Part shown: in pieces, positions 9,057-37,114 of the stretch
How positions within the stretch are numbered: position 1 is the first letter of the stretch
Layout of the letters: each line of letters starts with the position of its first letter
Assembly (NCBI RefSeq): GCF_900215155.1
Contig: NZ_LT907980.1
Location: 3,968,001-4,032,000, forward strand
DNA from: Marinobacter sp. LV10R510-11A
GTDB lineage: Bacteria; Pseudomonadota; Gammaproteobacteria; Pseudomonadales; Oleiphilaceae
Direction of reading: 5' to 3'
DNA: 64,000 nucleotides
Notes under the pieces: model-generated
Told to the model about the DNA's origin: nothing
Databases searched by the model: none
What the model saw: only the letters and a program-made list of their open reading frames with translations
Translations under genes and position numbers: made by a program

Positions 9057-10121
9057 ATGGCCCTGATTTCGATGCGGCAAATGCTGGACCACGCCGCCGA
9101 GCATGGTTACGGTGTGCCAGCCTTTAACGTAAACAACCTAGAACAAATGCGCGCCATCATGGAAGCCGCCGACAAAACCGACTCCCCGGTTATTGTTCAG
9201 GCCTCCGCCGGTGCTCGCAAATACGCTGGCGCCCCCTTTCTGCGCCACCTAATTCTCGCAGCTATTGAAGAATGGCCGCACATCCCGGTGGTTATGCACC
9301 AGGACCACGGCACCAGCCCGGCCATTTGCCAGCGCTCCATTCAGCTGGGCTTCAGCTCTGTAATGATGGACGGCTCCTTGGGCGAAGACGGCAAAACGCC
9401 TATGGACTACGAATACAACGTAGACGTAACCCGCCGTACCGTAGACATGGCCCACGCCTGTGGCGTATCCGTAGAAGGCGAGCTGGGTTGCTTGGGTTCT
9501 CTAGAAACCGGCCAAGCCGGTGAAGAAGACGGCATTGGCGCCGAAGGTACTCTGGACATGAGCCAGATGCTGACCGACCCAGAAGAAGCCGCAGACTTCG
9601 TGAAGAGAACCCACGTAGACGCCCTAGCCATCGCCATCGGCACCAGCCACGGCGCCTACAAGTTCACCCGCCCGCCCACAGGCGACATTCTGGCCATCGA
9701 GCAGATCAAAGCCATTCACAAACGCATTCCAGACACCCACCTGGTTATGCACGGCTCTAGCTCCGTACCCCAGGAATGGCTGAAAATCATCAACGAATAC
9801 GGCGGTGAGATGCCCGAAACCTACGGTGTACCGGTTGAGGAAATCGTGGAAGGCATCAAGCACGGTGTGCGTAAAATAAACATCGACACCGACCTGCGCC
9901 TAGCCAGCACCGGCGCTGTGCGTCGCTTCCTGGCCGAGAACCCAGCCGAATTCGACCCGCGCAAATTCCTGCAAGCAACCATGGTAGCCATGACCGACAT
10001 CTGCGTGGCACGCTACGAAGCCTTTGGTTGTGCTGGTAATGCGAGCAAGATCAAGCCGATCAACCTTGAGCGCATGTTTGAGCGTTATGAGGCTGGTGAG
10101 TTGGATCCTAAGGTTAAGTAA
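9057..10121 (+). CDS. fba: Fructose-bisphosphate aldolase, class II
   Basis: A 354-residue protein whose ATG at 9057 follows AAGGAG. Zinc-dependent class II aldolase that reversibly condenses dihydroxyacetone phosphate and glyceraldehyde 3-phosphate. Visible signatures are [66 protein letters not shown] and KINIDTDLR. These match the long class IIB (CbbA/Fba) type. It is the last gene of the tkt-epd-pgk-fba group and is followed by a strong hairpin terminator. Confidence 0.96.
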
Positions 10122-10135
10122 GGCAGTTGTTATGC

Positions 10136-10168
10136 AGCCCCGGGTGCCTTGCCCGGGGCTGTGATTTT
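10136..10168 (+). terminator. Rho-independent terminator after fba
   Basis: 9-bp perfect stem AGCCCCGGG (10136-10144) / CCCGGGGCT (10152-10160) with a 7-base loop, followed by GTGATTTT. It ends the core metabolic operon just before the cassette region. Confidence 0.85.
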
Positions 10169-10501
10169 CCCTCCCTCAAACCCTCCTCTCGATATTCGCC
10201 GTTGGTGCATATATCCCAAAAAAACGGCTGCTAGTCGTAATTTCCGTTAAAATTAACGAAGTTTTGCAAAAGGCAAAGGTAAGTAGTCCAGACATGGTCT
10301 AGTGTGGGTAGCTATACGCTATGAACACCGATTGTTAGGGATAACGGCCGATGACCTCTTCAGTACTGATACAGCCTCTTTTTTTCAACCTCGGGTGTTT
10401 CACCTATTGGGTGGAGCTCGGCCTGTGGGTGATGCGGCGCTGTTCGAAAGAAAACTCAGAGCGACTACCCGAAACGGCAGGGCGCCGACGAGTCTTCGTT
10501 A
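10169..10501. other. Intergenic stretch before the first cassette; no supported gene
   Basis: No convincing gene, RNA gene or integrase is seen. A 99-codon frame (10302-10601) overlaps the next gene and has no recognisable motif. GTTAGGG near 10334 and GTTGGGG near 10533 resemble integron crossover cores but lack a clear paired half. An attI or degenerate attC here is only a possibility. Confidence 0.5.
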
Positions 10502-10530
10502 TTGCAATAATGACGCGTTCTGTCTAATAC
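10502..10530 (+). promoter_or_regulatory. Candidate sigma-70 promoter for the first cassette gene
   Basis: TTGCAA (10502-10507) and TAATAC (10525-10530) are separated by exactly 17 bp and lie 46 bp before the ATG of the Mrr-STAND gene. Pattern match only. Confidence 0.45.
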
Positions 10531-10575
10531 GCTGTTGGGGCCTTTTTCGTACGTTAACAAATACGGAACTATGTA

Positions 10576-13326
10576 ATGAAGATAGAAGTTGCACTAAATA
10601 AGTCTGCCTCAACTAAAGAGAGAGGCGATCTTCTGGAAGCGCTAACTGAAAAACTCTTAACAGCGCAGTCGTATGAAGTTATCAAGGAAATAAGATTTAC
10701 TGCTGTAGAGTTAGACTTGTTATGTCGTCACAAGATCAGTGGCAAAGAAATATATGTAGAGTGCAAGGCATACCGGGATAAAAACATTGATGCAAATATT
10801 CTCAAGAACCTAGCTGGTACACTTATCTTTAAGGACTATTCAGAAGCGTGGCTTATCGGTACTGGCGACTATGGAAAAGAAGCAAAAGGTTTCGTTAAGG
10901 AATGGCAAGATAAACCTAAAGAGCAAGCAACAAAGTTAAGTTTTTATGATCCTGCGAAAGTTATTGAGTCACTTATTAGTGCGGGCGTAATAAAAAATCG
11001 TCCAGAGGATAAAGCGGAAGAATATGCTGGTAGTGAAAACCTGATAGGTGAGTGGGTTTTATTGGTTACAAAATATGGAATGTTTTGGGCTGCTGCAACA
11101 TTGTCAGGTGGTATTCCTTCTGGAGTTATATGCTATTACGCAAATAACAATGAATTACTAATCGACCCCAAACTGCTGGAAAACCTTTCTGAAACAGATA
11201 CTAGCTTAAATAAGCTCGACTTTACTCTGATGAAAAGCCAGGCCACTAGAACTACTGAAATAGAAACAACTAAAGTAGTAGACGTTGTTCAAGTACAAAC
11301 TGGCGAGGCATGGACTGATTATAGACCCGCTAGACCTCGAGATTTTGTCGGTAGAACGAAAGATATAAATTACATCTTTGATTTTTTAAAAAACATTAAA
11401 GAGAAGAAAACAAGCACTCGGATTTTTGCCATAACAGGGAATTCCGGGATGGGGAAAAGTTCATTTATTGCCAAACTAAAAAGTAAGGCAGACAATTATC
11501 AGAATAAGAATAAATTTTTTGTTTTCCCCGTTGATGTTCGTGCAGCTACAGGCCCCGAGTATATTTATTCCTCATTATTGAATGCATTGAAAAGCGCACA
11601 AAACTCTGGTTTTGGAGATGGAAATATTAATCTGATTCTATCTGATGTTGGTAGTCCGCTTAACTCTGAAACTATTAGGAAATTTTTAGAGTCATTAGAA
11701 CCAAAAAACCAGATTGTAACATTGGTTTTTGATCAGTTTGAAGAGCTGTATTCTAAGCCAGAGCTATTTGAAGTGTTTGAAAAAGCCAAGTCATTGTTAC
11801 TAAATGCAGCATCTATAAAGCTTAATTTTTGCTTAGGCTTTGCTTGGAAAACCGATAGTACAACTCATAGTGAACACCCAGCATATTTCTTTTGGCATCA
11901 ACTTTCAGATTATCGTGTCACTAGAAAATTAGTGCCTTTTTCTGATGGTGAGTCCGGCGCTGCAATAAGTATATTTGAGAAAGAAATTAATCAGAAGTTA
12001 CACACTGACTTGAAGCACAACTTGATCGCAAGTAGTCAAGGTTATCCATGGCTCCTGAAAAAGCTGTGCATTCACCTTTATGGGAAAATAGAAAATGGAT
12101 TTGATCAGAACGACTTGCTAGAGAATAAGCTAGATATTGCAAGTTTGTTTGAAGAAGATATTGACGAGCTTGAGCCAGGTGAGGCAGCTTGTTTAAAGCT
12201 AATAGCGCAACGAGCACCAGTTGACTGGTTTGAAATAATCGAAACATCTGGCCCCGATACTTTAAAGTCACTTATTAACAGACGTTTGGTTATTAGGAGT
12301 GGTGATCGACTAAATGTCTACTGGGATATTTTCAAAGAGTACATTTTAACAGGAAATGTTCCAGTTATACCTTTGAGGTATCTCCCATCTACTGACTTTT
12401 CATCATTATATAAAGTGGTTAGATATCTTGACCATGAGATAAAACTTTCAGTACATGATTTAGCCGGCAAAGCAACACTGTCTGAAGGAACGATTCAAAA
12501 TATCGGTTCTGATATGGTTATGTTTGGTGTTGCTAATAGGGAGGGTGGTCTTTATTCGCTTAGTGAAGATATCATAGATAGCAATGAAGCCAATATTCTA
12601 AAAGCCATACGAGAGAAGTTCAAAAAGCATGCTTTTACCCATGCTTTTAAAGGAAAAGCTTCCCGCTCTGCTGTGACGGTTAATGCTCTAATTGAAACTC
12701 TGAAACAATTATTTCCAGACAACAAATATGCTGAAAAAACATGGCATAGCTATACAGTTAGGCTTTGTCGGTGGTTAGAGTTATGCGGATTTATCGAGGT
12801 TTCAGGCAATGGCTGGGTATACCGTGATCAGGGGGATGTCGTTACTGAAAGGCTAAAGTTAGAACGGAGACGTAGAAAGAGTAATATATTTACTGCCCCA
12901 GCATCACCAGCCTTAGTCTTAGAAACATTAAATTGGCTGAAAGAAAAGGGAGAAGTCGATAAAGAAGAAGAGAAGCCGAAAGGCTATCGGAATGCACTTG
13001 CAGTTCTAAAGCGATTTGAACTTGTTGTCATTGAAAAAAATAATTACATGTTAGCGCTAGATAGAATTAATAAGTTCTCAAACTATAGTGAGGCTATTTG
13101 GATAAGTGCAAATTCTGAAAGTATTCTTCTAGAGGTTGTAAAATTGATTGAATCAAATAAAGCTGTTTCAGGAAAAGATATTGGAAATGTCTTAGCTGAT
13201 AAGTATGACCTTTCTTGGGCTGAGGCTTCCAGAATAAGAAATGGCGGTTCGATTAGGCAGTGGGCCCTTTGGTTGTACGAAGGAAAAGTTAATTCTGAAA
13301 TACCTAAATGTCCTGGACGAACGTGA
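10576..13326 (+). CDS. Mrr-like nuclease fused to a STAND-type P-loop ATPase (candidate defence protein)
   Basis: A 916-residue protein. Residues ~14-110 form an Mrr-type PD-(D/E)XK nuclease: RGDLLEALTEKLL (Glu21), ELDLL (Asp47), YVECKAY (Glu62, Lys64). Residues ~265-500 form a STAND-like ATPase: an FVGRTKDI lead-in, Walker A GNSGMGKSS (288-296), Walker B LVFDQFEEL (Asp386), and SQGYPWLLKKLCIHLY typical of the helical part. The C-terminal ~400 residues carry helical, probably winged-helix modules and no known repeat. The nuclease-plus-STAND plan recalls Avs antiphage proteins. The AT-rich composition differs from the core genes, and an attC-like site follows directly. Function in defence is inference. 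Confidence 0.75.
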   Translation: MKIEVALNKSASTKERGDLLEALTEKLLTAQSYEVIKEIRFTAVELDLLCRHKISGKEIYVECKAYRDKNIDANILKNLAGTLIFKDYSEAWLIGTGDYGKEAKGFVKEWQDKPKEQATKLSFYDPAKVIESLISAGVIKNRPEDKAEEYAGSENLIGEWVLLVTKYGMFWAAATLSGGIPSGVICYYANNNELLIDPKLLENLSETDTSLNKLDFTLMKSQATRTTEIETTKVVDVVQVQTGEAWTDYRPARPRDFVGRTKDINYIFDFLKNIKEKKTSTRIFAITGNSGMGKSSFIAKLKSKADNYQNKNKFFVFPVDVRAATGPEYIYSSLLNALKSAQNSGFGDGNINLILSDVGSPLNSETIRKFLESLEPKNQIVTLVFDQFEELYSKPELFEVFEKAKSLLLNAASIKLNFCLGFAWKTDSTTHSEHPAYFFWHQLSDYRVTRKLVPFSDGESGAAISIFEKEINQKLHTDLKHNLIASSQGYPWLLKKLCIHLYGKIENGFDQNDLLENKLDIASLFEEDIDELEPGEAACLKLIAQRAPVDWFEIIETSGPDTLKSLINRRLVIRSGDRLNVYWDIFKEYILTGNVPVIPLRYLPSTDFSSLYKVVRYLDHEIKLSVHDLAGKATLSEGTIQNIGSDMVMFGVANREGGLYSLSEDIIDSNEANILKAIREKFKKHAFTHAFKGKASRSAVTVNALIETLKQLFPDNKYAEKTWHSYTVRLCRWLELCGFIEVSGNGWVYRDQGDVVTERLKLERRRRKSNIFTAPASPALVLETLNWLKEKGEVDKEEEKPKGYRNALAVLKRFELVVIEKNNYMLALDRINKFSNYSEAIWISANSESILLEVVKLIESNKAVSGKDIGNVLADKYDLSWAEASRIRNGGSIRQWALWLYEGKVNSEIPKCPGRT

Positions 13327-13328
13327 TA

Positions 13329-13402
13329 GCCTTAAAAAAGCGCAGCTGTCGGACAAGTTTTTCCGCTACGCTCCAAGCTTGCCGCAGAGCTCGGCATTAG
13401 GC
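13329..13402 (+). repeat. attC-like site 1 (after the Mrr-STAND gene)
   Basis: Starts GCCTTAA and ends GCATTAGGC, with imperfect arms between. The inner pair GGACAAG / CTTGCC has one unpaired A, the kind of extrahelical base expected in attC. It lies directly after the stop codon and before the next ribosome-binding site, the normal cassette layout. Confidence 0.6.
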
Positions 13403-13421
13403 ATACGATCAAGGAGACTGA

Positions 13422-14033
13422 GTGAAAGTTTTTCATTTTATGAAAAAGCAACATGCGGTGAGAAATCTTGAGACGTCGCGCCTTAAAGTTGCGACTTTAG
13501 ATAGCATGAATGACCCGTATGAGTTCTTTCTTAACTTTGACGGCGCCTCCCAGGGCAATCTTGAAAACTTTAAAGAACATTTCACTAAGAAGGCTGGTTT
13601 TTTGTGTTTCTCGAGAAATCTAAATGATCCTGTTCAGTGGGCCCATTATGCAGAAAACCATCGAGGAATTTGTTGGGAATTTGATATTCCAGAGCATATC
13701 TTACAAAAGATTGAATATCTTAAGGTACCGATTAGCTTGAAAGAAGAAGGCGAAGGTTGGCGCGATAATTTGGTGAAGGCTACGCTTTGCAAATACGAAG
13801 GATGGTCTTACGAAAAAGAATACAGAATTCTGGTGGACTTAGAATCTGAAGAAGTTACTCGCGAATCTGGACTTCACTTTGTCAAACTTGAGAAGGTGGT
13901 AGCGCCAACCCGAGTTTATACTGGCATTCGCTGTAAGCTATCTGCCGACGAGAAAGAACTTTTTAAGCGCAAAGGCCTTGAAGTGGTTCGAATGGTTCAA
14001 GACCAGAGGTCTTTTTCCATCATACAAGCCTAA
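13422..14033 (+). CDS. DUF2971 family protein in an integron cassette
   Basis: A 203-residue protein with a GTG start at 13422 behind AAGGAG (13411-13416). The block DPVQWAHYAENHRGICWEFDIP and the later YEGWSYEKEYRILVDLE are the hallmarks of DUF2971, a soluble family of unknown function. Members turn up often in mobile and defence-rich regions; no catalytic role is established here. The cassette is compact: an attC-like site 20 bp before and another overlapping its stop codon. The recognition is good at family level, the role unknown. Confidence 0.75.
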   Translation: MKVFHFMKKQHAVRNLETSRLKVATLDSMNDPYEFFLNFDGASQGNLENFKEHFTKKAGFLCFSRNLNDPVQWAHYAENHRGICWEFDIPEHILQKIEYLKVPISLKEEGEGWRDNLVKATLCKYEGWSYEKEYRILVDLESEEVTRESGLHFVKLEKVVAPTRVYTGIRCKLSADEKELFKRKGLEVVRMVQDQRSFSIIQA

Positions 14034-14113
14034 CCAGTGCATAAAGTTTGTTACGACTCTTTGGGCTTCCATCGGGCGGCCTTGTCAGGCCTCCACTTAT
14101 GCAGGCATTAGTC
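14028..14113 (+). repeat. attC-like site 2
   Basis: GCCTAAC (14028-14034) pairs with GCATTAGTC (ends 14113). Inner arms GTGCATAA / TTATGCAG are complementary over GCATAA, with a spacer between. It overlaps the DUF2971 stop codon. The right core has one mismatch to GTTRRRY. Confidence 0.65.
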
Positions 14114-14131
14114 GCCGCATATGGATATTTT

Positions 14132-14710
14132 ATGTGTTCATCAGAAATAGACGCGGCTGCAATTGCTGCTAATTCAGCGATAGTCTCTGCTGTCGTAGCT
14201 GGATGTGTTGCTTTTGTCGTAGGTATTTTCACGGTTTACTATGCAAATCGGCGAAATCGCGAAAACATCTATGCTTCATCGGTAATACAAGAGCGCGCTA
14301 AGTGGCGTGATGAGATGAGGGAGCACGTTTCAAATTTTATAAAATTATCTCATCAGCTAATTATTTTAGAAATACCTTTTGTAAGTCCTGAATTGCGAAG
14401 CACTAAGTCTCAAATAGCACTTAGGTTGAATCCTAGCTTGGATGATAAGCATAAAATAGACCAAACCCTGCTCAGGTCGCTCGGTTTTTCGCTCAAGTAT
14501 CTCGCCGATAGTGATATAAATAGACTATCAGAAATGCTTATCCTAATCGAGCAAGGCACACAGCTGCTCATAAAACAAGAATGGGAAAAATCAAAGGACG
14601 AAGCTGGTTACCACAAAAAACTGGAAGAAAACTTCAAAAGTGAGAGTGAAGTCAAGCTAGCAATCGAATCTATCACTGCCAAAGTAACGAATCTCGAAAA
14701 TGCAGCCTAA
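14132..14710 (+). CDS. Membrane-anchored hypothetical cassette protein
   Basis: A 192-residue protein from the ATG at 14132, chosen because it lies just after the attC-like site; an upstream start would run through that site. One N-terminal membrane helix (about residues 11-36, IAANSAIVSAVVAGCVAFVVGIFTV) is followed by YYANRRNRE and a charged, mainly helical cytoplasmic domain (KWRDEMREHVSNFIKLSHQL). The shape, one helix plus soluble helices, is common in cassettes and small defence-island proteins. No family was recognised. Its 3' end runs into a truncated attC and an IS91-type element. Confidence 0.6.
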   Translation: MCSSEIDAAAIAANSAIVSAVVAGCVAFVVGIFTVYYANRRNRENIYASSVIQERAKWRDEMREHVSNFIKLSHQLIILEIPFVSPELRSTKSQIALRLNPSLDDKHKIDQTLLRSLGFSLKYLADSDINRLSEMLILIEQGTQLLIKQEWEKSKDEAGYHKKLEENFKSESEVKLAIESITAKVTNLENAA

Positions 14711-14831
14711 TTACTGTTGAACTAAACCGCTTCGCGGTAGCGAGTAAGCTTGGAAGTTTCCTGCGAGATCAGGTGTCTTGACCGATACTTTTGATTAGCC
14801 CGAGTGGGCTTTCAAAAGAGGAGAGTTCGTC

Positions 14832-15683
14832 ATGACACCTTTACGTCAGACCATGATCCAAGCCATGTGCCAACATGGCTTTTCCCCCCGAACCCAGCAA
14901 AGCTACCTTTATGTGGTCACCGCGCTGGCTCGTTATTATCGGCGCTCGCCTGATCAACTGAAGGTTGAAGACTTACAGGTCTATTTCAACTATCTGGTTC
15001 AGGAGCGTTCCCTGTCACCGGCCAGTTGTCGTGTTTACCTCCATGGCATCCGGTTTCTGTATTTGAAGGTGCTGCACTGGGCGCACTTCGATGTCACTCT
15101 GGTGCTGCCGAAGCGACCTCAACGTATTCCCGAATTACTGACACGTCAGGAAGTTGCGCGCCTTTTGGCCGCTGTTCTTAACCCCAAGCATCAAGCTCTG
15201 TTATCCGTCACCTATGGATGCGGCTTGCGCGTCAGCGAAGCGGTCGCGTTGAAGGTGAAAGACATTGATGGTGAACGCCACCTGCTTCGAATTGAGCAGG
15301 GCAAGGGCGCCAAAGACCGGATGGTGCCTCTGGCTCCCGGGTTACTCCGGGTGCTTCGTCGCTATTGGCAGATTCGCCATCCGATGCTCTGGTTATTTCC
15401 CAGCGATTTACTCCCAGACAGACACCTTCACATCACCACGCCTCAGAAGGTCTACCACACAGCCAAGACAACCAGTGGCATTGAAAAATGCGGTGGCATT
15501 CATGCCTTGCGCCATGCCTACGCCACACACCAGCTGGAGCGGGGTTTGCCCATTCATGAGCTGCAACGGCTCTTGGGGCACAGCGATTTGCGCAGCACTC
15601 AACGGTATCTGCACTGGTTGCCAGGCGTTACACCTCAAAACGGGGGTCCGGCTGACCTGATCGCACATCTCGGAGGTGCATGA
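14832..15683 (+). CDS. Tyrosine recombinase (phage-integrase type) of the IS91-like element
   Basis: A 283-residue XerC/D-like recombinase. The N-terminal SAM-like arm (MTPLRQTMIQAMCQHGFSP, QQSYLYVVTALARYYRRSP) binds DNA. The C-terminal catalytic domain shows Arg in YGCGLRVSEAVALKVKDID, His-x-x-Arg in HALRHAYATHQLE, His in LLGHSDLRST, and the nucleophile Tyr in TQRYLHW. Such genes accompany the transposase in a subgroup of IS91-family elements; this is not an integron integrase (the IntI-specific patch is not seen). Its stop overlaps the transposase start. Confidence 0.9.
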   Translation: MTPLRQTMIQAMCQHGFSPRTQQSYLYVVTALARYYRRSPDQLKVEDLQVYFNYLVQERSLSPASCRVYLHGIRFLYLKVLHWAHFDVTLVLPKRPQRIPELLTRQEVARLLAAVLNPKHQALLSVTYGCGLRVSEAVALKVKDIDGERHLLRIEQGKGAKDRMVPLAPGLLRVLRRYWQIRHPMLWLFPSDLLPDRHLHITTPQKVYHTAKTTSGIEKCGGIHALRHAYATHQLERGLPIHELQRLLGHSDLRSTQRYLHWLPGVTPQNGGPADLIAHLGGA

Positions 15684-16804
15684 TGGCCGGTGCACTAACT
15701 GTCCAGACGATTCTAAACCGATTCCTTCCGGGTCAGACACTGGACAGCCACCGGCGCAAGGTCTGCGCCCGGTTAACGGGGTGCCGAACCGCCCGCATGG
15801 GCGGTATGGAAATGCGCTGTGATCATTGCGAGGCCCGCTCCATCTGTTATTACGGCTGCCGGGATCGGCATTGTCCGCAATGTCAGGGGCGAGCGAGTCA
15901 GCAATGGAGCGAACGTCAGCGATCCCTGTTGTTGCCGGTGCCTTACTTTCATCTGGTGTTTACGCTGCCCCATACCTTGAACGGCTGGGTTCAGCTCCAT
16001 CCCGACGTGGTCTATCGCTGTCTGTTCGCCGCAGTCTGGGACACGCTTAACCAGTTTGGGCGCAACACCCGGCACCTTGGCGGCGAGTTGGGCATGACGG
16101 CGGTGCTCCACACATGGGGACAGAACCTGAGCCGTCATGTTCACGTGCATTGCCTGATCCCCGGCGGAGTGTTGACCGGCAATGGTGATTGGCACAAAGC
16201 TAAAAGCCACTACCTGTTCCCGGTACGGGCTCTATCCCGGCGTTTTCGAGGGCGCATGGTGTCGTTGCTAAGAGCGTCGGTGAACGCAGGTGAGCTACAC
16301 CGGGTGACCCGCAACGGTGAGATTGATGGTGTGCTCGACGGCCTGATGCAGCAGGAATGGGTTGTCTACACTCGACACTGCCTGAACCAGGCCGAGAGCG
16401 TAGTGGATTATCTGGCTCGCTACACGCACCGAATCGCCATCAGCAATGGGCGCTTGTTGACGATGGAGGATGACCGGATCGCCTTCCGCTATAAGGATTA
16501 TCGAGATCATTCACGATTGAAGACCCAGTGGCTGGATGGCCAGGAGTTCGTACGGCGGTTCCTAATGCACATTCTGCCAAAAGGCTTCATGCGAATTCGC
16601 CATTTTGGCTACCTGAGCAATCGAACCCGGCGACGAAAATTGGCTGTTATCCGGCACTGCTTATCGCAGCCGCCCAAACCAGAAGCGACACCGGAAAGCC
16701 CAGTATCTCAGCGGTGCTGGCCCTGTCTCCTCTGTGACAACGGTCTGGTTCGCATGGTTCGCCAGATTCCACGGTTCAGAATAACGGCTGTGCCGACGGG
16801 TTAG
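15680..16804 (+). CDS. IS91-family transposase (HUH, Y2 type)
   Basis: A 374-residue protein, full length for the family. The N-terminal zinc-finger region is CDHCEARSICYYGCRDRHCPQCQG. The HUH metal motif is HVHVHCLIPGG (His-x-His near residue 155). The tyrosine helix region is YLARYTHRIAISNGRL, followed by FRYKDYRDHSR. It drives rolling-circle transposition, with single-strand nicking at the ori end. ATG overlaps the recombinase stop. It appears intact. Confidence 0.9.
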   Translation: MMAGALTVQTILNRFLPGQTLDSHRRKVCARLTGCRTARMGGMEMRCDHCEARSICYYGCRDRHCPQCQGRASQQWSERQRSLLLPVPYFHLVFTLPHTLNGWVQLHPDVVYRCLFAAVWDTLNQFGRNTRHLGGELGMTAVLHTWGQNLSRHVHVHCLIPGGVLTGNGDWHKAKSHYLFPVRALSRRFRGRMVSLLRASVNAGELHRVTRNGEIDGVLDGLMQQEWVVYTRHCLNQAESVVDYLARYTHRIAISNGRLLTMEDDRIAFRYKDYRDHSRLKTQWLDGQEFVRRFLMHILPKGFMRIRHFGYLSNRTRRRKLAVIRHCLSQPPKPEATPESPVSQRCWPCLLCDNGLVRMVRQIPRFRITAVPTG

Positions 16805-17063: not shown

Positions 17064-17122
17064 AGTCCAACAGACATTTAATGGTCATGCTGCGCACGAC
17101 CATTAAATGCTTAAGTGTTAGC
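17064..17122 (+). repeat. attC-like site 3
   Basis: TCCAACAG at the left core and GTTAGC at the right core bracket a strong hairpin: CATTTAATGGTC pairs with GACCATTAAATG, then CTTAAGTGTTAGC. It has the outer R and inner L arms with a short loop expected of attC. One of the clearest sites in the window. Confidence 0.75.
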
Positions 17123-17462
17123 TGGGTAGTGCGTTGTGCCTTTTGGGTGGCTGGGATGAATTGGCCTTGGCCGAAAACTGGCAGTCGAACCGGCAATTCC
17201 CGTGTTTTGCCAAGGCCGTCAGAATCCGCGTCGAGTGGGTGGCCAAAATCAGCCAGCGGTGTTGGTATAAAGGTCGATGTTCGTCGTGACCAGGTGTCCG
17301 CCGAAACCTGGTTCCTGACTTACCTGCTACTCTGAAGTTCAGGTTCGTCCACCGCTTTATTGGCGTTGGGTTCAATCACAGTGCATCGGCGGTTTCCGGT
17401 GCAAGGGCAGCGGAGTAGGCCGTCGTGTTGGTAGCCAAGGATCGGGTTTCACAGTTACCCAC
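17123..17462 (+). other. Cassette body without a clear intact gene, paralogue A
   Basis: The stretch lies between two attC-like sites. It aligns with the following cassette along its whole length, sharing blocks such as GTGCCTTTTGGGTGGCTGGG, GCCAAGGCCGTC and GTGCATCGGC. In one frame both encode GLG..., a CQGRxNP block and a common stop, but here a TGA interrupts after WLG. Either a decayed short gene or a structured non-coding cassette; I recall similar cassettes in Vibrio arrays but could not check. Confidence 0.55.
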
Positions 17463-17540
17463 AGCTAACAATGCCATCAAATTCGCTCCCTACGGTCGCC
17501 GGACGCTCGTAAACTCGCGCCGTTTATGGCGGCGTTAGCT
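17463..17540 (+). repeat. attC-like site 4
   Basis: AGCTAAC (17463-17469) pairs with GTTAGCT (17534-17540). Inner arms ATGCCATCAAA / TTTATGGCGGC pair with an offset. The central part is a GC-rich loop. Classic attC layout between two related cassettes. Confidence 0.8.
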
Positions 17541-17872
17541 GGGTTGGTATGGTTCCTTTTTGGTGGCTCGGTGCCAGTGGCCTTGGCTCAGATTTGGTAG
17601 CACAACCGCCATGTTTCGGTGATTGCCAAGGCCGTCGGAATCCGTGGTCTGTTTGGCAGCTTTATCGTTCATTGGCGCAGGCATAAAATTCGGTGCTCGT
17701 CGCGTGGGGCAGTCCACGCAAACTTGGGCCTGTGTCTGGTAATCTGGCGTTCAGGTTCGTTCACCGCATCATTTGCGGTGTTTTTGAACGTTGTGCATCG
17801 GCAGATTTTGGTGCAAGGGCAGCAGGCGGAATAGGCTATCATTTTGAGTGCCAAGGGCTGGGCTGTCAGTCT
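17541..17872 (+). other. Cassette body without a clear intact gene, paralogue B
   Basis: Related to the preceding cassette in sequence and order of blocks. The frame starting near CCTTTTTGGTGGCTC is open here for about 43 codons and ends QLYRSLAQA; the rest carries short frames in other registers that are not conserved between the two copies. Its 3' end, just before its attC, is interrupted by the IS30 element. Confidence 0.5.
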
Positions 17873-18971
17873 TGGATTCATAGAATAAGTGCAGCACTTT
17901 GGATGAACAGGTAGAGGTAGGAGGGCCGTTGCCGGTACCCTCATTCGCTTTACCTACCAAAGTGAAGAGAATCATGGGATACCGACAACTGACCCAGGCA
18001 CAACGATACCAGATTTCGGCCTTCTTGAGAGTAGGCTGGAGCCAGCGGAAAATAGCCCGGGAGATCAACTGCCACAGCTCGACCATCAGTCGGGAGCTAC
18101 GTCGTAATCGAAGCCTGACTGAATACGAGCCGATGGAAGCCAGTCGTTTGTCCATACATCGGCGCAAAGGAGCTCGCAAATCTCATAAACGAGCGCCCTC
18201 ATTGATAGATTGGGTGGCCAAGCAGATTCAGAGTGAATGGAGTCCTGATCAGATAGCCGGTTTTATGAGGCGAGTTGGCAGTATCCAAGTCAGCCATCAG
18301 TGGATTTACAATCTGATTTACCGGGACAAAATAGCAGGTGGCGACCTCTGGAGGTATTGTCGCTTGCCTTACCAGAGACGTTATCAGCGCCATCTTGCCA
18401 AGCGAGCCGGGTTAGGCAAGATCCCGAATCGCGTAGGCATTGAGTGCCGCCCTAAAGCCGTCGATGATCGCCTGCATATAGGCCACTGGGAAGGAGATAC
18501 AATCCTTCACGGGCATAAGAATTCAGGCGCGGTCACTCTGGTTGAAAGACGGTCCGGCTACCTGCTCGCAGGCTGTGTGCCGAAGCTGAAAGCCCACTTA
18601 GTTACAGATGTCATCATCCGTGAGTTAAGGCCGATCAGAGGGGCCGTACAGACGATGACACTGGACAACGGTTCTGAATTTTCGGACCACCAAACATTTA
18701 GCAAAGCGTTGTCGCTGACGTCGTATTTCTGTGACCCTTACCGGTCCAGTCAGCGTGGCTCCAACGAGAATACGAATGGCCTATTGAGGCAATACTTTCC
18801 GAAAGGCACTGACTTCGCCAAGGTGTCCAGAAAGGCAACCAGGCAAGCGGTGAACAGACTGAATAACCGACCACGAAAACGGCTGGGTTATCGCACACCG
18901 GCAGAAGTTTTCTGGGGCGAATACTCAGGAGGCTTGGATACGAGCGGTGCTGCACTTATTACTTGAATCCA
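17873..18971 (+). mobile_element. IS30-family insertion sequence
   Basis: About 1.1 kb bounded by imperfect inverted repeats: TGGATTCATAGAATAAGTGC at 17873 and the complement of a matching end finishing at 18971 (differences only around bases 9-12). One transposase gene. It sits just before the attC remnant of cassette B; no clear target duplication. Confidence 0.85.
17974..18966 (+). CDS. IS30-family transposase
   Basis: A 330-residue protein from ATG 17974. The N-terminal helix-turn-helix reads RQLTQAQRYQISAFLRVG followed by SQRKIAREINCHSSTISRELRRN. The DDE catalytic core has Asp in HWEGDTILHG, Asp in MTLDNGSEF, and Glu in the block GSNENTNGLLRQYFPKGTDF, which is typical of IS30. An upstream in-frame extension to 17899 crosses the left terminal region and is rejected. 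It appears intact. Confidence 0.93.
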   Translation: MGYRQLTQAQRYQISAFLRVGWSQRKIAREINCHSSTISRELRRNRSLTEYEPMEASRLSIHRRKGARKSHKRAPSLIDWVAKQIQSEWSPDQIAGFMRRVGSIQVSHQWIYNLIYRDKIAGGDLWRYCRLPYQRRYQRHLAKRAGLGKIPNRVGIECRPKAVDDRLHIGHWEGDTILHGHKNSGAVTLVERRSGYLLAGCVPKLKAHLVTDVIIRELRPIRGAVQTMTLDNGSEFSDHQTFSKALSLTSYFCDPYRSSQRGSNENTNGLLRQYFPKGTDFAKVSRKATRQAVNRLNNRPRKRLGYRTPAEVFWGEYSGGLDTSGAALIT

Positions 18972-18980
18972 GGAGTTACA

Positions 18981-19004
18981 CCCAGCTAATTACTGTTAAC
19001 TACT
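18981..19004 (+). repeat. Truncated attC remnant at the Pycsar cassette border
   Basis: CAGCTAATTACTGTTAACTA closely matches GCCTAATTACTGTTGAACTA at 14705-14724. Both follow a cassette and look like a left attC core followed by little else. Here the next gene starts within 20 bp, so the middle of the attC seems to be lost. Confidence 0.4.
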
Positions 19005-19015
19005 GCGGAGTCAGT

Positions 19016-19582
19016 ATGAAGTTGGTAAGCACTGAGATAAAGCAGATGAATGAGGACTATTATTCAAAGTTGGATGGCATTTTTAAAAATGTTAATGAAT
19101 GGCTGAAATTTGCTGAACAAAAAAACGCAGCATTGCTCTTACTGAATGGTGGGATGATTTGGGGGGTTACACGAGTTTTCAGTGCCGTAGATCTCGTTCC
19201 AAAGATATCGTATTGGTTTAATCTAATAGGTTATTCACTTATTTCTGTCTCTACTTTAATTTGTATCATTTCCTTTCTACCCATTCTGCAACAACGATGG
19301 TTTAAACCCGAAAAAACCTGCCCATCTGACAACTGTTTATACTTCGCACATTCGGCGAAATATGATGCTCGGGATTATCTTAAATTTCTCGCTAAGAAAT
19401 TGGGTTATGAAAAAGAAAAAACTATATTTACCGAGTTTGAAATTGACTTAAGTAAGCAAATAGTCACAAACTCAGAAATAGCATTTGATAAATATAAGCG
19501 ATTTAAGTTAGCAGCTGTCTTTACTATATTGACGGTTGTCTTATTTTTGTTGTCTATTGGAATGATAAATTTCATGGAGTAA
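19016..19582 (+). CDS. Pycsar membrane effector (PycTM-like)
   Basis: A 188-residue protein from ATG 19016 (GGAG at 19007-19010). Residues ~35-60 (WLKFAEQKNAALLLLNGGMIWGV) and ~70-95 (YWFNLIGYSLISVSTLICIISFL) are membrane helices. A cytoplasmic stretch with DARDYLKFLAKKLGYEKE follows, then a C-terminal helix (LAAVFTILTVVLFLLSIGMINF). The AE-KNAALLLLNG start and helix layout match the Pycsar transmembrane effector family (DUF5706 type). It would disrupt the inner membrane when bound by a cyclic pyrimidine nucleotide. It lies 3 bp before a nucleotide cyclase gene, the known partner. No attC between the two. Confidence 0.75.
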   Translation: MKLVSTEIKQMNEDYYSKLDGIFKNVNEWLKFAEQKNAALLLLNGGMIWGVTRVFSAVDLVPKISYWFNLIGYSLISVSTLICIISFLPILQQRWFKPEKTCPSDNCLYFAHSAKYDARDYLKFLAKKLGYEKEKTIFTEFEIDLSKQIVTNSEIAFDKYKRFKLAAVFTILTVVLFLLSIGMINFME

Positions 19583-19585
19583 AAA

Positions 19586-20380
19586 ATGATAGGTAAAGAT
19601 CAATTACCTGAAAACATAAAAAAAATAATTAACAAACAAGTAGAAAAGTTTAATATACGCGTCTTTACTGAAGAAGTTGATGAAATACCTAATGTGGATG
19701 ATATTCCTGGCGAGGGTTCTGCAAAATGGTTAAAAATAAAGGATGTAATATGTGTTTTCGTAGATATGAAAAATTCAACAAAACTCAGTGCATCGCATCA
19801 TGCGGGAACTACTGGTAGAGCCTATACCCTTTTCACAGGTACAGCTGTTCGATTATTTAAAGAGTTTGGGGCCTCTTATATAGACATCAAAGGCGATGGT
19901 GTTTTTGCTTTGTTTAACTCAAATAGAGTACATGCGGCTTTTGCATCAGCCGTTACTTTCAAGACTTTTATAAAAGAAGAATTTACGACAAAAATAGCTA
20001 ACAAAACTGATGTTGATACGGGTGTTCATATAGGTATCCATCAAGCCACATTGTTGGTAAGTAAAATAGGTCTTCGTAAAAGTGCTTCGAGAGGGGATAT
20101 GCATAATGAGGTATGGGCGGGTAAAACAGTTAATATGGCTTCTAAGTTAGCTAGCCTGTCCGATAGCAATGAAATCCATGTTTCAGATAAATACCATTCA
20201 AAATTAAGGTCAAGAAAAGCATTATACTCATGCGAATGTGACGATTCTGTGTTTTTATGGGAAGAAGTAGATATTACGAATGACGATAAATTCTCGTTTA
20301 ATAAGGCAATGGTTTTAAAGAGCGTTTGGTGTAAAAAGCATGGGGCAACTTATTTGACAGAAATTTTAGATACTGATTAA
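19586..20380 (+). CDS. pycC: Pycsar nucleotide cyclase (PycC-like, class III cyclase fold)
   Basis: A 264-residue soluble protein with one class III cyclase domain. Metal-binding aspartates are Asp60 (VFVDMKNSTKLSA) and Asp104 (IKGDGVFALF). The block NEVWAGKTVNMASKLASL is typical of PycC enzymes. In Pycsar immunity such cyclases make cCMP or cUMP on phage infection to activate the paired effector. The gene follows the membrane effector by 3 bp and is followed by an attC-like site. Base choice, pyrimidine versus purine, cannot be settled by reading alone; the partnership is the best argument. Confidence 0.78.
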   Translation: MIGKDQLPENIKKIINKQVEKFNIRVFTEEVDEIPNVDDIPGEGSAKWLKIKDVICVFVDMKNSTKLSASHHAGTTGRAYTLFTGTAVRLFKEFGASYIDIKGDGVFALFNSNRVHAAFASAVTFKTFIKEEFTTKIANKTDVDTGVHIGIHQATLLVSKIGLRKSASRGDMHNEVWAGKTVNMASKLASLSDSNEIHVSDKYHSKLRSRKALYSCECDDSVFLWEEVDITNDDKFSFNKAMVLKSVWCKKHGATYLTEILDTD

Positions 20381-20394
20381 GTTTTAAATTTAGT

Positions 20395-20451
20395 GCATAC
20401 AAGTCGCATCAGTACGCGGCCTTCGGCTGTCGCTGTGCTTCGGCGTTATGC
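20395..20451 (+). repeat. attC-like site 5 (after the Pycsar pair)
   Basis: GCATAC at the left and GTTATGC at the right are outer arms. Inner segments GCATCAGTACGC and GCTGTGCTTCGGC pair imperfectly around GGCCTTCGGC. It starts 15 bp after the cyclase stop. Confidence 0.6.
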
Positions 20452-20482
20452 TAAATGTGCAGGTACAACAGGGAGTTGGGAT

Positions 20483-20824: not shown

Positions 20825-20838
20825 TAGGCCGAGTATCA

Positions 20839-20921
20839 GGCCTAACAAGTGCAGGCACGGCGACGCCCTTTACATTGCGCCTACGGCTCCATTCCAAGGG
20901 AGCGCATGCTGCAAGCGTTGA
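20839..20921 (+). repeat. attC-like site 6, cut by IS1182 element
   Basis: GGCCTAACAAG at the left; TGCAGGCA pairs with a TGCTGCA stretch further right, before AAGCGTT. The insertion sequence begins immediately after GCGTTGA, so the right core is interrupted. ACGTTAGCG just beyond the element may be the displaced remainder. Confidence 0.65.
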
Positions 20922-22745
20922 GGCTGTAGAAAAACCTCAAATCAGACTGATTTTGGTAGAATCGAGAAAACAGACAAGGAGCTGTCGGAATGCCTCGTTT
21001 CAAGCACTACAATTACGACCAAGATGCGATGGTGGTCATCAACTACCAGGAACAGCTCCAGCCCGGCACCTTTGAGCACGCGGTTCACTACCTGATCGAA
21101 CACAAGCTGGATCTGACGGTTTTTCACCCGAAATATCGAAACGACGACACCGGACGGCTGGCTTATGATCCGGCCATTCTTCTGAAGATCATCCTGTTCG
21201 CCTACTCCAAAGGCATCACGTCCAGCCGCGAGATCCAGTGGTGCTGCGAGACCAACATCATCTTTAAAGCGCTGTCCTGCGATACCGTTTCGCACTTCAC
21301 CACTCTAGCCAAGTTCGTCAGCCAGCACGCCGATGAGATCGAAGAGCTGTTCGAGCAAATACTGCTGGTGTGCCATGAACAGGGCCTTCTGGGCAACGAA
21401 CTGTTTGCCATCGACGGCTGCAAAATGTCGTCAGACGCCGCGAAGGAATGGTCTGGCACCTTTAAAGAGCTGGGCGAAAAACGGGACAAGCTGAAACGGT
21501 TGATTCGCTACCATTTGCATGAGCATCATGAACGGGATAAGGCTGAAACCGAAGCGGAACTGGATCGAGATATTCGCCGCGCCAAAACCGTCCTTTCTCT
21601 GGATGAGTCCATGAAAAAAGTGGATCGCTTCCTAAAGACGAACAGCCCAAGGATGGGCCAGGGGAAACGACCCAAGGAAGTGAAGAGCAACATCACCGAT
21701 AACGAAAGCGGCAAGATGACCACCAGTAAGGGCACGATCCAAGGCCATAACGGCGTGGCCACGGTGGATAAGAAAGATCAGGTCATTATCGATGCTCAAG
21801 CCTTCGGTGAAGGCCAGGAATACCACACGTTAAAGCCAGTGCTGGAAACGGTTCAGCGCCGCTATAAAAAGCTGGGTATCGCCGACAACATCTATCAAAC
21901 CGGCGCGATAGTGACCGCCGACACAGGCTTCGCCAACGAAGCCAATATGCAGTACCTGCATGAGCAACAGATCAACGGTTACATCCCGGACAATCGCTTC
22001 CGCAGCCGTGATCCGAAGTTCGCCGAGCAGAAAGACAAGTACGGTAAGCGGCATCAGAACCTCCCGGACAAGGGTTGGAAAGACACCATTGCAGCGAGTG
22101 AATTCCAGTTCGATCCTGTGAAGCTGACCTGTATTTGCCCATCCGGCAAGGCACTTACTTATCGAGGGCAGCGGGAAGCTCTGAACGGCAAAATTCGAGT
22201 GCACTTCGAAGGTCGCTTGCTGCAATGTCGCCACTGTCCTAAGAAGCACGAATGTATGCAGAATCCGGCTTCGGCGAACCACCGCAACGGCTCCGGCCGA
22301 CAGGTCTCCTTCACCGTTGAAAACAAACGCGCACCAAATTACACCGACTGGATGAAGCACCGAGTAGATAGCCAGCAAGGCAAAACTATTTACGGTCATC
22401 GCATGTCAGTAGTTGAGCCCGTGTTCGGCAACATCGGCAGCAACAAGCGCCTGAATCGCTTCAGCCTGCGGAGCAAAAAGAAGGTGCAGGGTCAGTGGCA
22501 ATTGTATTGCCTGGTGCACAACATTGAGAAGCTGGCGAATTACGGGCAGTTAGCGGCATGACTACTAAACTTCGATGAAGCACGAAACAGCCTGCAGAGG
22601 GCTATATGGAGAGCGTTTAGCGCCGGATCTCGATAACGCTGCGGTGTTGCCACCAAAGGATCAAACTTGCGACAGTTGATCGCAGGATGTGAAAAAACAA
22701 TAAAGCGGCTGCGGGCTGGGCTCTGAGAAGGGTTTTTCTACAGCC
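20922..22745 (+). mobile_element. IS1182-family insertion sequence
   Basis: Bounded by 15-bp perfect inverted repeats GGCTGTAGAAAAACC (20922-20936) and its complement (22731-22745). One long transposase gene. Inserted at the crossover end of an attC-like site. A CGTT motif occurs on both sides but not directly abutting, so a target duplication is unproven. Confidence 0.88.
20990..22561 (+). CDS. IS1182-family transposase (DDE type)
   Basis: A 523-residue transposase. The start MPRFKHYNYDQDAMVVINY followed by HAVHYLIEHKLDLTVFHPKYRNDDTGRLAYDPAILLKIILFAYSKGI is characteristic of IS1182 proteins. Later LFAIDGCKMSSDAAKEWSGT carries the first catalytic Asp, VTADTGFANEANMQYL the second region, and the C-terminal block GHRMSVVEPVFGNIGSNKRL holds the catalytic Glu. 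A Cys-rich stretch (CRHCPKKHECM) lies in between. Full length and apparently intact. Confidence 0.93.
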   Translation: MPRFKHYNYDQDAMVVINYQEQLQPGTFEHAVHYLIEHKLDLTVFHPKYRNDDTGRLAYDPAILLKIILFAYSKGITSSREIQWCCETNIIFKALSCDTVSHFTTLAKFVSQHADEIEELFEQILLVCHEQGLLGNELFAIDGCKMSSDAAKEWSGTFKELGEKRDKLKRLIRYHLHEHHERDKAETEAELDRDIRRAKTVLSLDESMKKVDRFLKTNSPRMGQGKRPKEVKSNITDNESGKMTTSKGTIQGHNGVATVDKKDQVIIDAQAFGEGQEYHTLKPVLETVQRRYKKLGIADNIYQTGAIVTADTGFANEANMQYLHEQQINGYIPDNRFRSRDPKFAEQKDKYGKRHQNLPDKGWKDTIAASEFQFDPVKLTCICPSGKALTYRGQREALNGKIRVHFEGRLLQCRHCPKKHECMQNPASANHRNGSGRQVSFTVENKRAPNYTDWMKHRVDSQQGKTIYGHRMSVVEPVFGNIGSNKRLNRFSLRSKKKVQGQWQLYCLVHNIEKLANYGQLAA

Positions 22746-23083: not shown

Positions 23084-23090
23084 GGAGTAC

Positions 23091-23203
23091 GCTAACAAGG
23101 CGTTCCAGCGGACCCCGAACACTCCGCGGCTGTTTGCGCATACTACGGCATTGTTGCGCAAACACCCACTCCGCATTCGGGCCCGCTGAACTGGGCGTTA
23201 TGC
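23091..23203 (+). repeat. attC-like site 7
   Basis: GCTAACAAGGCGTTCCAGCG at the left matches the common integron attC left half. The right end CCCGCTGAACTGGGCGTTATG is its partner; CAGCGG / CCGCTG and GGACCCCG / CGGGCCC arms pair. The 113-bp length with an inner palindrome (TTTGCGCA...TTGCGCAAA) is typical of long attC sites. Confidence 0.85.
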
Positions 23204-23247
23204 AAGAAGCCACTAGTCTTCACCATGACCAATATGGATATTAAATT

Positions 23248-26376: not shown

Positions 26377-26412
26377 TCCTTTGCAATCGGGCTTTGTTTA
26401 TACCCATAGATT

Positions 26413-26465
26413 GCATAACAAGAAAGTGCGGCCGACACAGTAAACTCTGCGGCTGACGTTGGCGC
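26413..26465 (+). repeat. Possible attC-like site 8 (after the glycan cassette)
   Basis: GCATAACAAG (26413) and ACGTTGGCG (ends 26464) look like left and right cores, but the inner arms GTGCGGCCGAC and CTGCGGCTGAC are closer to a direct than an inverted repeat. Weak. Confidence 0.4.
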
Positions 26466-26612
26466 TATAGAGTGGTGAAAAATCATCAGCTGAGAAGGAG
26501 CTGCGGCTGTGAAGAGAGTTGTCTTGAGGCGACGTCAGGCCTGATTGCGAGCTTAGGCGCGGATGCTAAAATGCCCGCCAGCATTGATGACCATCACTGG
26601 AGAAAAAGCGAT

Positions 26613-27569
26613 ATGAACACGGCTCCCACATTCTATCCAATCGGTAAACCCGGCACTCCCTGGGGCGACGAGGAACGCGCCGAGTGGTTGTCACGACAGC
26701 CCCGCCAACGCAGCTACGAGTCCGAGGTGTTGAGTGTGATCGAGCGCCTGCGCCCGCACTTCGACGCGGAACAGTATGGCCGTCTGGACTATGGCCCCGA
26801 TAGCTATCCGCTGATGGCGATCCGGAGCCGCGACTGGCGTGACGATCTGCCGGTCGTGTTGATAACGGGCGGGGTACACGGCTATGAAACCAGCGGTGTA
26901 CACGGCGCGCTGCAGTTCGTCGATCAGCATGCGGCGGATTACACAGGCCGCGTTAACTTGCTGGTTGCGCCCTGTGTCAGCCCTTGGGCTTATGAGCGCA
27001 TCCATCGCTGGAACCCGAACGCGGTCGACCCCAACCGCTCGTTCCGCCATGGCAGTCCGGCTGAGGAGTCGGCGGCACTCATGCAACTGGTGGCGCCCGT
27101 TCGCGATCGAGCACTGATGCATATCGACCTGCATGAAACCACCGATACCGACGAAACCGAATTTCGCCCTGCGCTGGCAGCCCGTGACGGCAAGCCGTTC
27201 GAGCCGGGTGGGATTCCCGACGGCTTCTATCTGGTCGCTGACAGCGAGAACCCGCAGCCTGAATTTCAACAGGCGGTGATCGAGGCGGTGGAGCAGGTCA
27301 CTCATATCGCCCCGGCCGATGACAACGGCGAGCTCATCGGCTCACCGGTGGTCACTCGGGGTGTTATCCAGTACCCGCTCAAGCAGCTGGGCCTGTGCGC
27401 CAGTATCACCAGCGCCCCCTACAAGACCACCACCGAGGTCTATCCCGACAGCCCCCGTTCGACTCCCGAGCAATGCAATGCCGCGCAGGCTGCAGCAGTG
27501 TGTGCGGCGATCGACTACGCGCTGCTGGCTTCGTCCATGTCAAAGATCAAGCAAGTAAAGGCGCTCTAA
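26613..27569 (+). CDS. M14 family metallocarboxypeptidase / deacylase
   Basis: A 318-residue protein from ATG 26613 (GGAGAAA upstream). The zinc site is in ITGGVHGYETSG (His-x-x-Glu) with the third ligand in HIDLHETTD. VDPNRSFRHG supplies the substrate-binding Asn-Arg pair of M14 enzymes. The catalytic Glu probably lies in TTTEVYPD near the end. No signal peptide, so cytoplasmic. The family includes carboxypeptidases and AspA/succinylglutamate desuccinylase-like deacylases; substrate unknown. A fragment of a second copy lies at 30281-30494. Confidence 0.8.
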   Translation: MNTAPTFYPIGKPGTPWGDEERAEWLSRQPRQRSYESEVLSVIERLRPHFDAEQYGRLDYGPDSYPLMAIRSRDWRDDLPVVLITGGVHGYETSGVHGALQFVDQHAADYTGRVNLLVAPCVSPWAYERIHRWNPNAVDPNRSFRHGSPAEESAALMQLVAPVRDRALMHIDLHETTDTDETEFRPALAARDGKPFEPGGIPDGFYLVADSENPQPEFQQAVIEAVEQVTHIAPADDNGELIGSPVVTRGVIQYPLKQLGLCASITSAPYKTTTEVYPDSPRSTPEQCNAAQAAAVCAAIDYALLASSMSKIKQVKAL

Positions 27570-27633
27570 CCGAAACAGATCGCGATTGCCTTCACGCCCT
27601 TCGTCGAACGCTTTGCGTTCGTGGCGGTTGGTC
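27565..27633 (+). repeat. Possible attC-like site 9 after the M14 gene
   Basis: TCTAACC overlapping the M14 stop and GGCGGTTGGTC at the right could be outer cores. A perfect central hairpin GAACGC-TTT-GCGTTC lies inside. Intermediate arms are weak; it could also be a terminator-like hairpin. The stretch to 27764 shows nothing else except AAGGAG before the next gene. Confidence 0.35.
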
Positions 27634-27764
27634 AGATGCTCAGCTAAACTTTTGTTTTATGGATCTTATAGCCTAGAGCTTTCTGCGAGACTGAGCGGCG
27701 AGCCACAATATAACAACTATAGCAGCCGGTCCCGGACCGCGGACTGTGAAACAAGGAGAAAGCG

Positions 27765-29447: not shown

Positions 29448-29459
29448 TAAAAAAGAACG

Positions 29460-29500
29460 GAAAAAAAGGGGAGCGCCACTTGGCCACTCCCCTTTTTGGT
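29460..29500 (+). terminator. Terminator after acyl-CoA synthetase
   Basis: AAAAAAGGGGAG ... CTCCCCTTTTT forms a long stem with A and T runs, so it could work in both directions. Confidence 0.85.
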
Positions 29501-29612
29501 CTGCACCGGTTTCAGAGGAGGCCTGAAAGGATCAGCCAAGGCCCTGCCGGCTATTATACTTGGGCAAAATTTCGGGACTGTCCGCTTATGAATAACTTGC
29601 AAGGAGCGCAAC

Positions 29613-30236: not shown

Positions 30237-30280
30237 GTCACATGCCCTCCCGCATTAGCCATCACTGGAGAAAAAGCGAT

Positions 30281-30494
30281 ATGAACACGGCTCCCGCATT
30301 CTAACCAATCGGTACGCCAGGCACTCCCTGGGGCGACGTGGAACGAGCCGGGTGAGATTCCCGATGGTTTTTATCTGATTGATGACAGCGAGAACCCTCA
30401 TTCTGAATTTCAGCAGGCGGTGATTGAGGCGGTGGAGCAGGCCACTCATATCGCTCCGGCTGACGACAATGGGGAAATCCTTGGCGCACCGGTA
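30281..30494 (+). pseudogene. Remnant of a second M14 carboxypeptidase gene
   Basis: The 5' end repeats the M14 gene at 26613 including its upstream CATCACTGGAGAAAAAGCG. It reads MNTAPAF then a stop (TAA), and jumps within 80 bp from the GDVER region to the GEIPDGFYLIDDSENPHSEF region, a deletion of about 0.5 kb. It ends near the GELIGSPV position. A clear broken duplicate. Confidence 0.85.
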
Positions 30495-30584
30495 GGGAGA
30501 ATCAGTTGTTGTCTAGGTAGAATCAAACAGAGTGTAAGCATTTAAAAACAGCGCTTTGTAGGGGTTTTCCAAGGAGATAAGATT

Positions 30585-31346: not shown

Positions 31347-31358
31347 GCAGCGCAACCG

Positions 31359-33478: not shown

Positions 33479-33483
33479 CGGTA

Positions 33484-33516: not shown

Positions 33517-33535
33517 GCTATTGGGATTTGAGACC

Positions 33536-33564: not shown

Positions 33565-33577
33565 GACGGTAGCGGCT

Positions 33578-37084: not shown

Positions 37085-37114
37085 ATTCAGCTCCTCCAGA
37101 ACAAAGATTGATCA

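Follow-up and report, generated by a model that had tools for sequence, protein, structure and literature searches.

An Mrr-type STAND nuclease in a putative integron cassette of Marinobacter sp. LV10R510-11A, a candidate stand-alone anti-phage sensor

What might a full-size STAND nuclease do in an attC array that lacks an integrase of its own? The question is raised by a stretch of 64,000 nucleotides from Marinobacter sp. LV10R510-11A (assembly GCF_900215155.1, contig NZ_LT907980.1, forward-strand positions 3,968,001 to 4,032,000), called here the window, to whose numbering coordinates refer. The host genome is a single contig of 4.44 Mb. The gene under study occupies positions 10576-13326 of the plus strand, and encodes a 916-residue protein (P0001) made of an Mrr nuclease, an nSTAND1 NTPase and a predicted winged-helix domain. 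With confidence somewhat above even, the protein is regarded as a stand-alone, single-gene STAND (NLR-like) anti-phage sensor, taken up in the distant past as an integron cassette, which would work as Avs proteins do while differing in sequence from Avs1-5. A defensive activity is suggested by the domain lay-out and by the genomic contexts of relatives.

The gene is an uninterrupted open reading frame (ORF) that starts with ATG and has no internal stop, and the N-terminal residues MKIEVA are shared by the protein and the family consensus. Residues 20-109 (10633-10902) match Mrr_cat, a PD-(D/E)XK nuclease domain, with 35.4 bits against a Pfam cut-off of 21; residues 249-432 (11320-11871) match nSTAND1 with 32.1 bits against 27.1, and residues 280-408 match AAA_22 with 35.9 bits against 27. 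The preliminary description, drawn up from the letters of the window, had already seen in these 916 residues a nuclease joined to a P-loop ATPase, and all the residues it named sit where it had placed them: Asp47 (codon 10714-10716), Glu62 and Lys64 (codons 62 to 64, 10759-10767), the Walker A motif GNSGMGKSS (residues 288-296, 11437-11463) and the Walker B motif LVFDQFEEL (383-391, 11722-11748). To these can be added Gly489-Tyr-Pro491 (12040-12048), a GxP motif, which is a hallmark of STAND NTPases. Conservation was monitored in an alignment of 129 sequences, comprising 116 of 120 listed proteins (at least 850 residues long) and 13 fetched loci; four shorter listed proteins, and loci L016, L020 and L022-L026, near-duplicate, truncated or very distant, were set aside. 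Asp47 is Asp in all the 126 rows having a letter at that position, Glu62 is kept in 129 and Lys64 in 128 of the 129 rows, and Gly293, Lys294 and Ser295 of Walker A, Asp386, Glu389 and Glu390 of Walker B, Gly489 and Pro491 are kept in every row. Conservation of the nuclease and NTPase residues exceeds chance by far. Length is also constant, the median in the alignment being 914 residues (5th-95th percentile, 894 to 933).

The C-terminal region, about 325 residues long, had been described as devoid of recognisable repeats and of a clear array of tetratricopeptide repeats (TPRs). As to TPRs the description is sound, as no TPR family matched the query in Pfam at E ≤ 0.1, nor any of ten C-terminal fragments at E ≤ 1, searches which weak repeats could escape. 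The region is not wholly unrecognisable, however. A profile made from 14 C-terminal regions (A2) matches the winged-helix regulator of PDB entry 2d1h (E 5.6e-5) and then Csa3, LrpC and MarR-type winged helices (E 0.03-0.1), always at profile positions 21 to 91, corresponding to residues 610-683 or thereabouts (12403-12624). A whole-protein profile (A3) matches 2d1h at the same place (E 6.1e-4), and weak helix-turn-helix matches recur near these residues in single relatives. The predicted winged helix is new in this analysis. When solved structures were searched by sequence with the query protein alone nothing significant was found, and a third profile (A1) retrieved nothing beyond the AfsR P-loop (E 0.0091). 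Four tandem winged helices, suspected by eye in residues 600-916, found no support in profile self-comparison: the best non-overlapping pair of segments, 590-700 and 765-850, reached at most 43% probability, other pairs were near nothing, and two higher values stemmed from residues common to overlapping segments. The winged helix predicted at about 610-683 is the only one supported.

The domains diverge at different rates. Mean identity to the query, calculated over 128 aligned relatives, is 0.70 in the nuclease and 0.68 in the NTPase, and falls to 0.53 in residues 600-690, 0.49 in 690-770 and 0.45 in 770-916; in 124 of 126 rows identity is lower in this last segment than in the NTPase. Fast divergence of the C-terminal region would be expected if it were a sensor under change. 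The linker at residues 136-245 is likewise diverged (0.51).

Avs1 to Avs5 have in common an N-terminal effector, a central STAND NTPase and a C-terminal region taken as the sensor, and the nuclease-STAND-C-terminal region arrangement of the protein, rightly noted before as resembling theirs, fits this scheme. The protein differs from them in having 916 residues and a putative winged helix in the C-terminal region, and in lacking a TPR match. To compare hidden Markov models, the query and eight relatives were searched against NCBIfam (E ≤ 1) and PADLOC (E ≤ 0.1 for the query, E ≤ 0.01 for the relatives). No Avs-named model was matched in either collection, in agreement with the preliminary view. 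NCBIfam was confirmed to hold models of Avs2 (1317 positions), Avs4 (1579) and Avs5 (763), those of Avs1 and Avs3 not being confirmed there; PADLOC contains Avs models. Judged by sequence, the protein is not a member of Avs1-5. Genome searches with the Avs4 and Avs5 models gave no match, controls included, and are uninformative on absence from genomes.

Other known proteins share parts of the architecture. Like other Mrr_cat nucleases, among them the Type IV restriction enzyme Mrr, the nuclease belongs to the catalytic family PF04471, and it has the D, E and K residues intact; it differs from Mrr in being fused to a STAND NTPase, and the N-terminal domain of Mrr was not found. The nuclease also weakly matches the NACHT-associated inactive REase 1 family (PF22722, E 0.068), which is annotated for many relatives; the label inactive is ill-suited to the query family, since the catalytic residues are conserved. 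A precedent is found in the text examined of Rousset et al. 2022 (PMC9122126), where STAND proteins with an Mrr_cat N-terminus and C-terminal repeats are described among the cargo of P4 satellites; that text reports no test of them. By this description, an Escherichia coli relative of the protein shares with them both the domain order and the slot, between psu and the integrase gene.

Relatives are numerous. A homologue search over 5.8 billion proteins, in which 8,000 candidates were scored, yielded at least 1,341 relatives at E ≤ 0.001. The closest among the candidates scored, the protein's own entry aside, are a metagenomic protein (96% identical), one of Vibrio cyclitrophicus (95%) and one of Vibrio diabolicus (94%). 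Mrr_cat and nSTAND1, followed by a C-terminal region, were recognised in this order by Pfam in Bacteroidota (Chryseobacterium), Cyanobacteriota (Nostoc) and Actinomycetota (Streptomyces), and relatives align over almost the full query in Chloroflexota (Herpetosiphon) and Pseudomonadota. The family spans five phyla with constant domain order and length. It is also sparse: among 369 genomes searched in the class, and again among 398 in the phylum, only the source genome itself has it. In E. coli DNA there is no match to the window gene itself, nor to its relative at locus L018. The family is represented by 14 loci in viral contigs, and by matches in 16 plasmid records, of which seven span 80% of the query or more; certain of these replicons are chromosome-sized. 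Spread by phages was considered and discarded, as no match was found among 50,697 phage records. Swapping of effectors on a common core, suggested by loci L045 and L026 seemingly lacking the nuclease, was also discarded: L026 has a weak Mrr_cat match (E 7.1e-4), and L045 nearly duplicates L026 but is shortened at the 5' end. A literature search, conducted mostly outside subscription papers and preprints, retrieved no report of a test of the family. The earlier suggestion of a new sensor family is apt in so far as the family is uncharacterised and matched no known family of anti-phage sensors in these scans; it is not in so far as many members are already present in sequence collections. What is found is a known lay-out in an unlisted branch, with a different C-terminal region.

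Neighbouring genes were examined in 17 contexts; loci L015, L016 and L026 were left out, and L046 is only a 256-residue piece. Known defence-type neighbours were found in five contexts, published cargo slots in three, unclear situations in two, and nothing of the kind in the remaining seven. The first five include the window itself, with a DUF2971 protein (PADLOC candidate PDC-S31) and Pycsar genes; L003, with a type IIG restriction-modification-like gene; L004, with a type I/IV restriction-like helicase-nuclease gene; L018, with type III restriction-modification-like genes, a DNA methylase and an AbiEii-like AAA gene; and L029, with an AAA ATPase and a restriction endonuclease, Fic and SIR2 proteins. 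Among the slots, the E. coli relative (WP_000113630.1, 29% identical) is cargo between psu and the integrase gene of a P4-like satellite at ssrA; it is present in 54 of 5,426 E. coli genomes, and L020-L025 are the same gene or fragments of it. The L017 relative, 27% identical to the E. coli one, occupies the psu-int slot of another P4-like satellite. The L013 relative (72% identical) is part of a P2-like prophage, with a Toprim protein gene on one side and the portal and terminase genes on the other. These three loci correspond to psu-int (P4) and gpA-gpQ (P2), both anti-phage hotspots in the text examined of Rousset et al. (PMC9122126). The unclear contexts are L019 (Prim-Pol, KAP NTPase) and L042 (HNH endonuclease, DUF4172 protein). 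In E. coli strain 4/4 (L030, 11750-16731) an IS1 splits the integrase gene of the P4-like satellite carrying the relative.

Comparison of 151 neighbour ORFs revealed no partner gene common to unrelated loci; outside the P4-like group five pairs of neighbours are alike, including L013 and L021/L023 genes that are 38% identical. The STAND nuclease would in consequence probably act alone. A two-gene system formed with the adjacent DUF2971 gene was rejected as the default view, as a probable attC lies between the two genes and the pair occurs in no locus among the same neighbours.

As an Avs-like sensor, the protein may be imagined to work as follows, trigger, assembly, cutting and protection being modelled on Avs proteins. 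At rest, the C-terminal region would keep the NTPase in a closed state. The fast-evolving C-terminal part would bind a protein or nucleoprotein made by the phage; ATP binding would then let several subunits assemble via the STAND domain, and the nuclease domains so brought together would cut both phage and host DNA, the infected cell stopping ahead of phage release. For Avs proteins, nuclease effectors occur in Avs1-4 according to the text examined of PMC12931631; when phage packaging proteins are sensed, these effectors are reported, there and in the text examined of PMC12724215, to cut the genomes of both phage and host.

Several observations weigh against a sensor of this kind. Seven contexts (L002, L014, L027, L028, L043, L044, L045) feature neither a defence neighbour nor a slot, two neighbours having been scanned in each of L002, L014 and L028. 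The three slots derive from a viral collection, biased to mobile contexts, and the repeated presence in defence slots, established without a control set, is not a measured neighbourhood bias. The PADLOC matches of the query cover the short P-loop only (PDC-S20, E 7.7e-07; PDC-M01A; PDC-M62A); those found overall are short matches to P-loops or nucleases, and involve also PDC-S02, DndF and others. Winged helices near the NTPase are common in STAND proteins that do not sense phage, and the one predicted here may be structural only.

The winged helix keeps alive, as main rival, an explanation in which DNA is read directly. The protein would be a Type IV-like restriction enzyme that depends on NTP. 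Its winged helix, perhaps with further C-terminal modules, would recognise foreign or modified DNA, the STAND NTPase would gate or move the complex, and the Mrr nuclease would cut the invader, so that the cell is saved and not killed. The Mrr type of the nuclease, the resemblance of the winged helix to those of DNA-binding regulators, the restriction genes that adjoin some relatives and the name restriction endonuclease, which most sources use where they give one, all fit this explanation. It is harder to reconcile with an NTPase of the STAND type, endowed with GxP and not McrB-like, in which no translocase motif was found, and with Pfam scans of the query and of the C-terminal fragments that revealed no modification-sensing domain. 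Winged helices inside STAND proteins, moreover, also work without touching DNA. On balance, restriction has a modest chance of being the right answer. A bolder form of the sensor interpretation may be put forward, with low confidence: the family could be a deep, uncharacterised NLR-like branch in which winged-helix modules, in place of TPR-type repeats that bind protein, read phage nucleic acid or nucleoprotein and are coupled to the Mrr nuclease, and which moves as full-size integron cassette, satellite and prophage cargo.

The cassette nature of the STAND gene finds support in a putative degenerate attC at 13329-13402 (plus strand), which begins 2 bp past the stop codon. The 13327-13401 interval is 82-84% identical (E 8e-10 to 4e-7) to three sites found in plasmids of Vibrio pectenicida and Shewanella putrefaciens and in pKAZ2, which when aligned read CTAACAAGGCGC...GGCGTTA and have the CTAAC...GTTA ends of the attC form; the window copy departs from these at both ends. 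The hairpin at 13326-13416 is no better than shuffles (z 0.04), and the plasmid relatives fold with z of -2.04, -0.82 and -0.83, one clearly beating shuffles. The attC is therefore accepted for its plasmid relatives, not for its hairpin. Upstream of the gene, neither attI nor attC was recognised by eye in 10122-10575, and no plasmid match was found there at E 0.01. The gene had been called the first cassette; a cassette it appears to be, and first only in the sense of leftmost in the array. That it is unusually large for a cassette is well founded: at 916 residues it has the length of its relatives, and the 2025 review PMC12409362, reporting Darracq et al., describes integron defence systems as size-reduced in the text examined. 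In the same review and in PMC12444791, as far as their examined text goes, integrons are stores of anti-phage genes. The anti-phage cassettes described in Vibrio (Darracq 2025, Getz 2025) and those from mobile integrons (Kieffer 2025) are likewise defence-type genes in attC-bounded arrays; they are said there to be streamlined, in contrast to the full-length protein described here.

The array continues to the right of the STAND gene. The next likely cassette, directly 3' of it, carries a GTG-started gene at 13422-14033 (plus strand) for a DUF2971 protein of 203 residues (Pfam 30.6 bits, cut-off 22; PDC-S31, E 1.3e-23), followed by a probable attC recognised by eye at 14029-14113 (hairpin 14026-14112, z -1.86; no plasmid match at E 0.01). 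Further attC-like hairpins, all on the plus strand and sharing its orientation, are at 17066-17126 (z -5.90), at 17463-17540 (seven of seven core pairs; z -2.45 for 17460-17543) and, farther down, a long one at 23091-23203 (z -4.06 for 23088-23206). The second of these is placed between two related cassettes of 0.4 kb, and is supported also by direct repeats (D9/D10) spaced 412-416. The two cassettes, in tandem at 17118-17830, measure about 0.41 kb each, are 71-76% identical in two blocks and have no ORFs of their own of at least 110 residues. Three candidates picked by eye (20390-20457, 20838-20930, 26410-26470) were dropped, their folding being no better than that of shuffles. A strict attC pattern scan gave no hit in the window (0, 3 and 0 in shuffles), and a looser one gave six, to be compared with 0-6 in ten shuffles, which is no separation from chance.

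Other elements are lodged in the array or lie beyond it. A tyrosine recombinase of 283 residues followed by an IS91-type Y2 transposase is inserted at 14832-16804, and a recombinase of close score is encoded around position 1460000 of the host contig (G000:C1). A Pycsar pair at 18947-20380 comprises a PycTM-type effector with two transmembrane segments (211 residues) and a PycC cyclase (264 residues; PADLOC E 2e-131). Several duplicated blocks occur at 26591-39818, including a metallophosphatase-like gene region present in two to three copies about 4 kb apart. On the minus strand, 57842-58128 matches the full Rfam model 5_ureB_sRNA (RF02514) with 134.4 bits, the gathering score being 40.

The array has no integrase of its own: the only integrase above the TIGR02249 cut-off is encoded about 0.72 Mb away (G000:C1:3254127-3255056), and the tyrosine recombinase encoded at 14832-15683 stays, with 111.5 bits, below the cut-off of 265. 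The STAND gene is judged to be of foreign origin from its G+C content (0.377, versus 0.572 in the adjoining upstream fba), from the 94-95% identical Vibrio proteins and from its absence in same-genus genomes: similarity to three of these ends at the end of fba, and none of the three has a family match at E 1e-30. The gene could be a passive passenger, a captured gene that sits unexpressed and without effect in an old array. The distant integrase and the degenerate attC are compatible with this, as is what surrounds the start of the gene. A terminator-like hairpin with a 14-pair stem and a T-rich tail lies between fba and the STAND gene (10133-10163, plus strand), no plus-strand promoter-like site was found in 10100-10576, and in 10100-14850 such sites number eight, versus 8.9 expected. 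Against it are the intact ORF and the presence of all the catalytic residues, an argument weakened by the recent foreign origin that G+C content suggests, which would have left little time for decay. A passenger is improbable, and the issue bears on expression in this host, not on the function of the family. A housekeeping or regulatory STAND ATPase, using a nuclease-like domain in DNA repair or replication control, is highly improbable given the sparse spread and the mobile contexts of relatives, the NTPase resembling Orc1/Cdc6-type ATPases only weakly (TIGR02928, 25.9 bits, cut-off 181.3).

If the protein is defensive, a common and unstudied family of STAND nucleases would join Avs, with a sensor other than a TPR array; a nucleic-acid trigger, which is possible, would if true bear on how NLR-like proteins evolved recognition. 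Two members only 27% identical, hosted in the same satellite slot, provide tractable E. coli material. Integrons, again if the protein is defensive, would carry full-size single-gene STAND systems of about 2.8 kb, contrary to the trend to size reduction.

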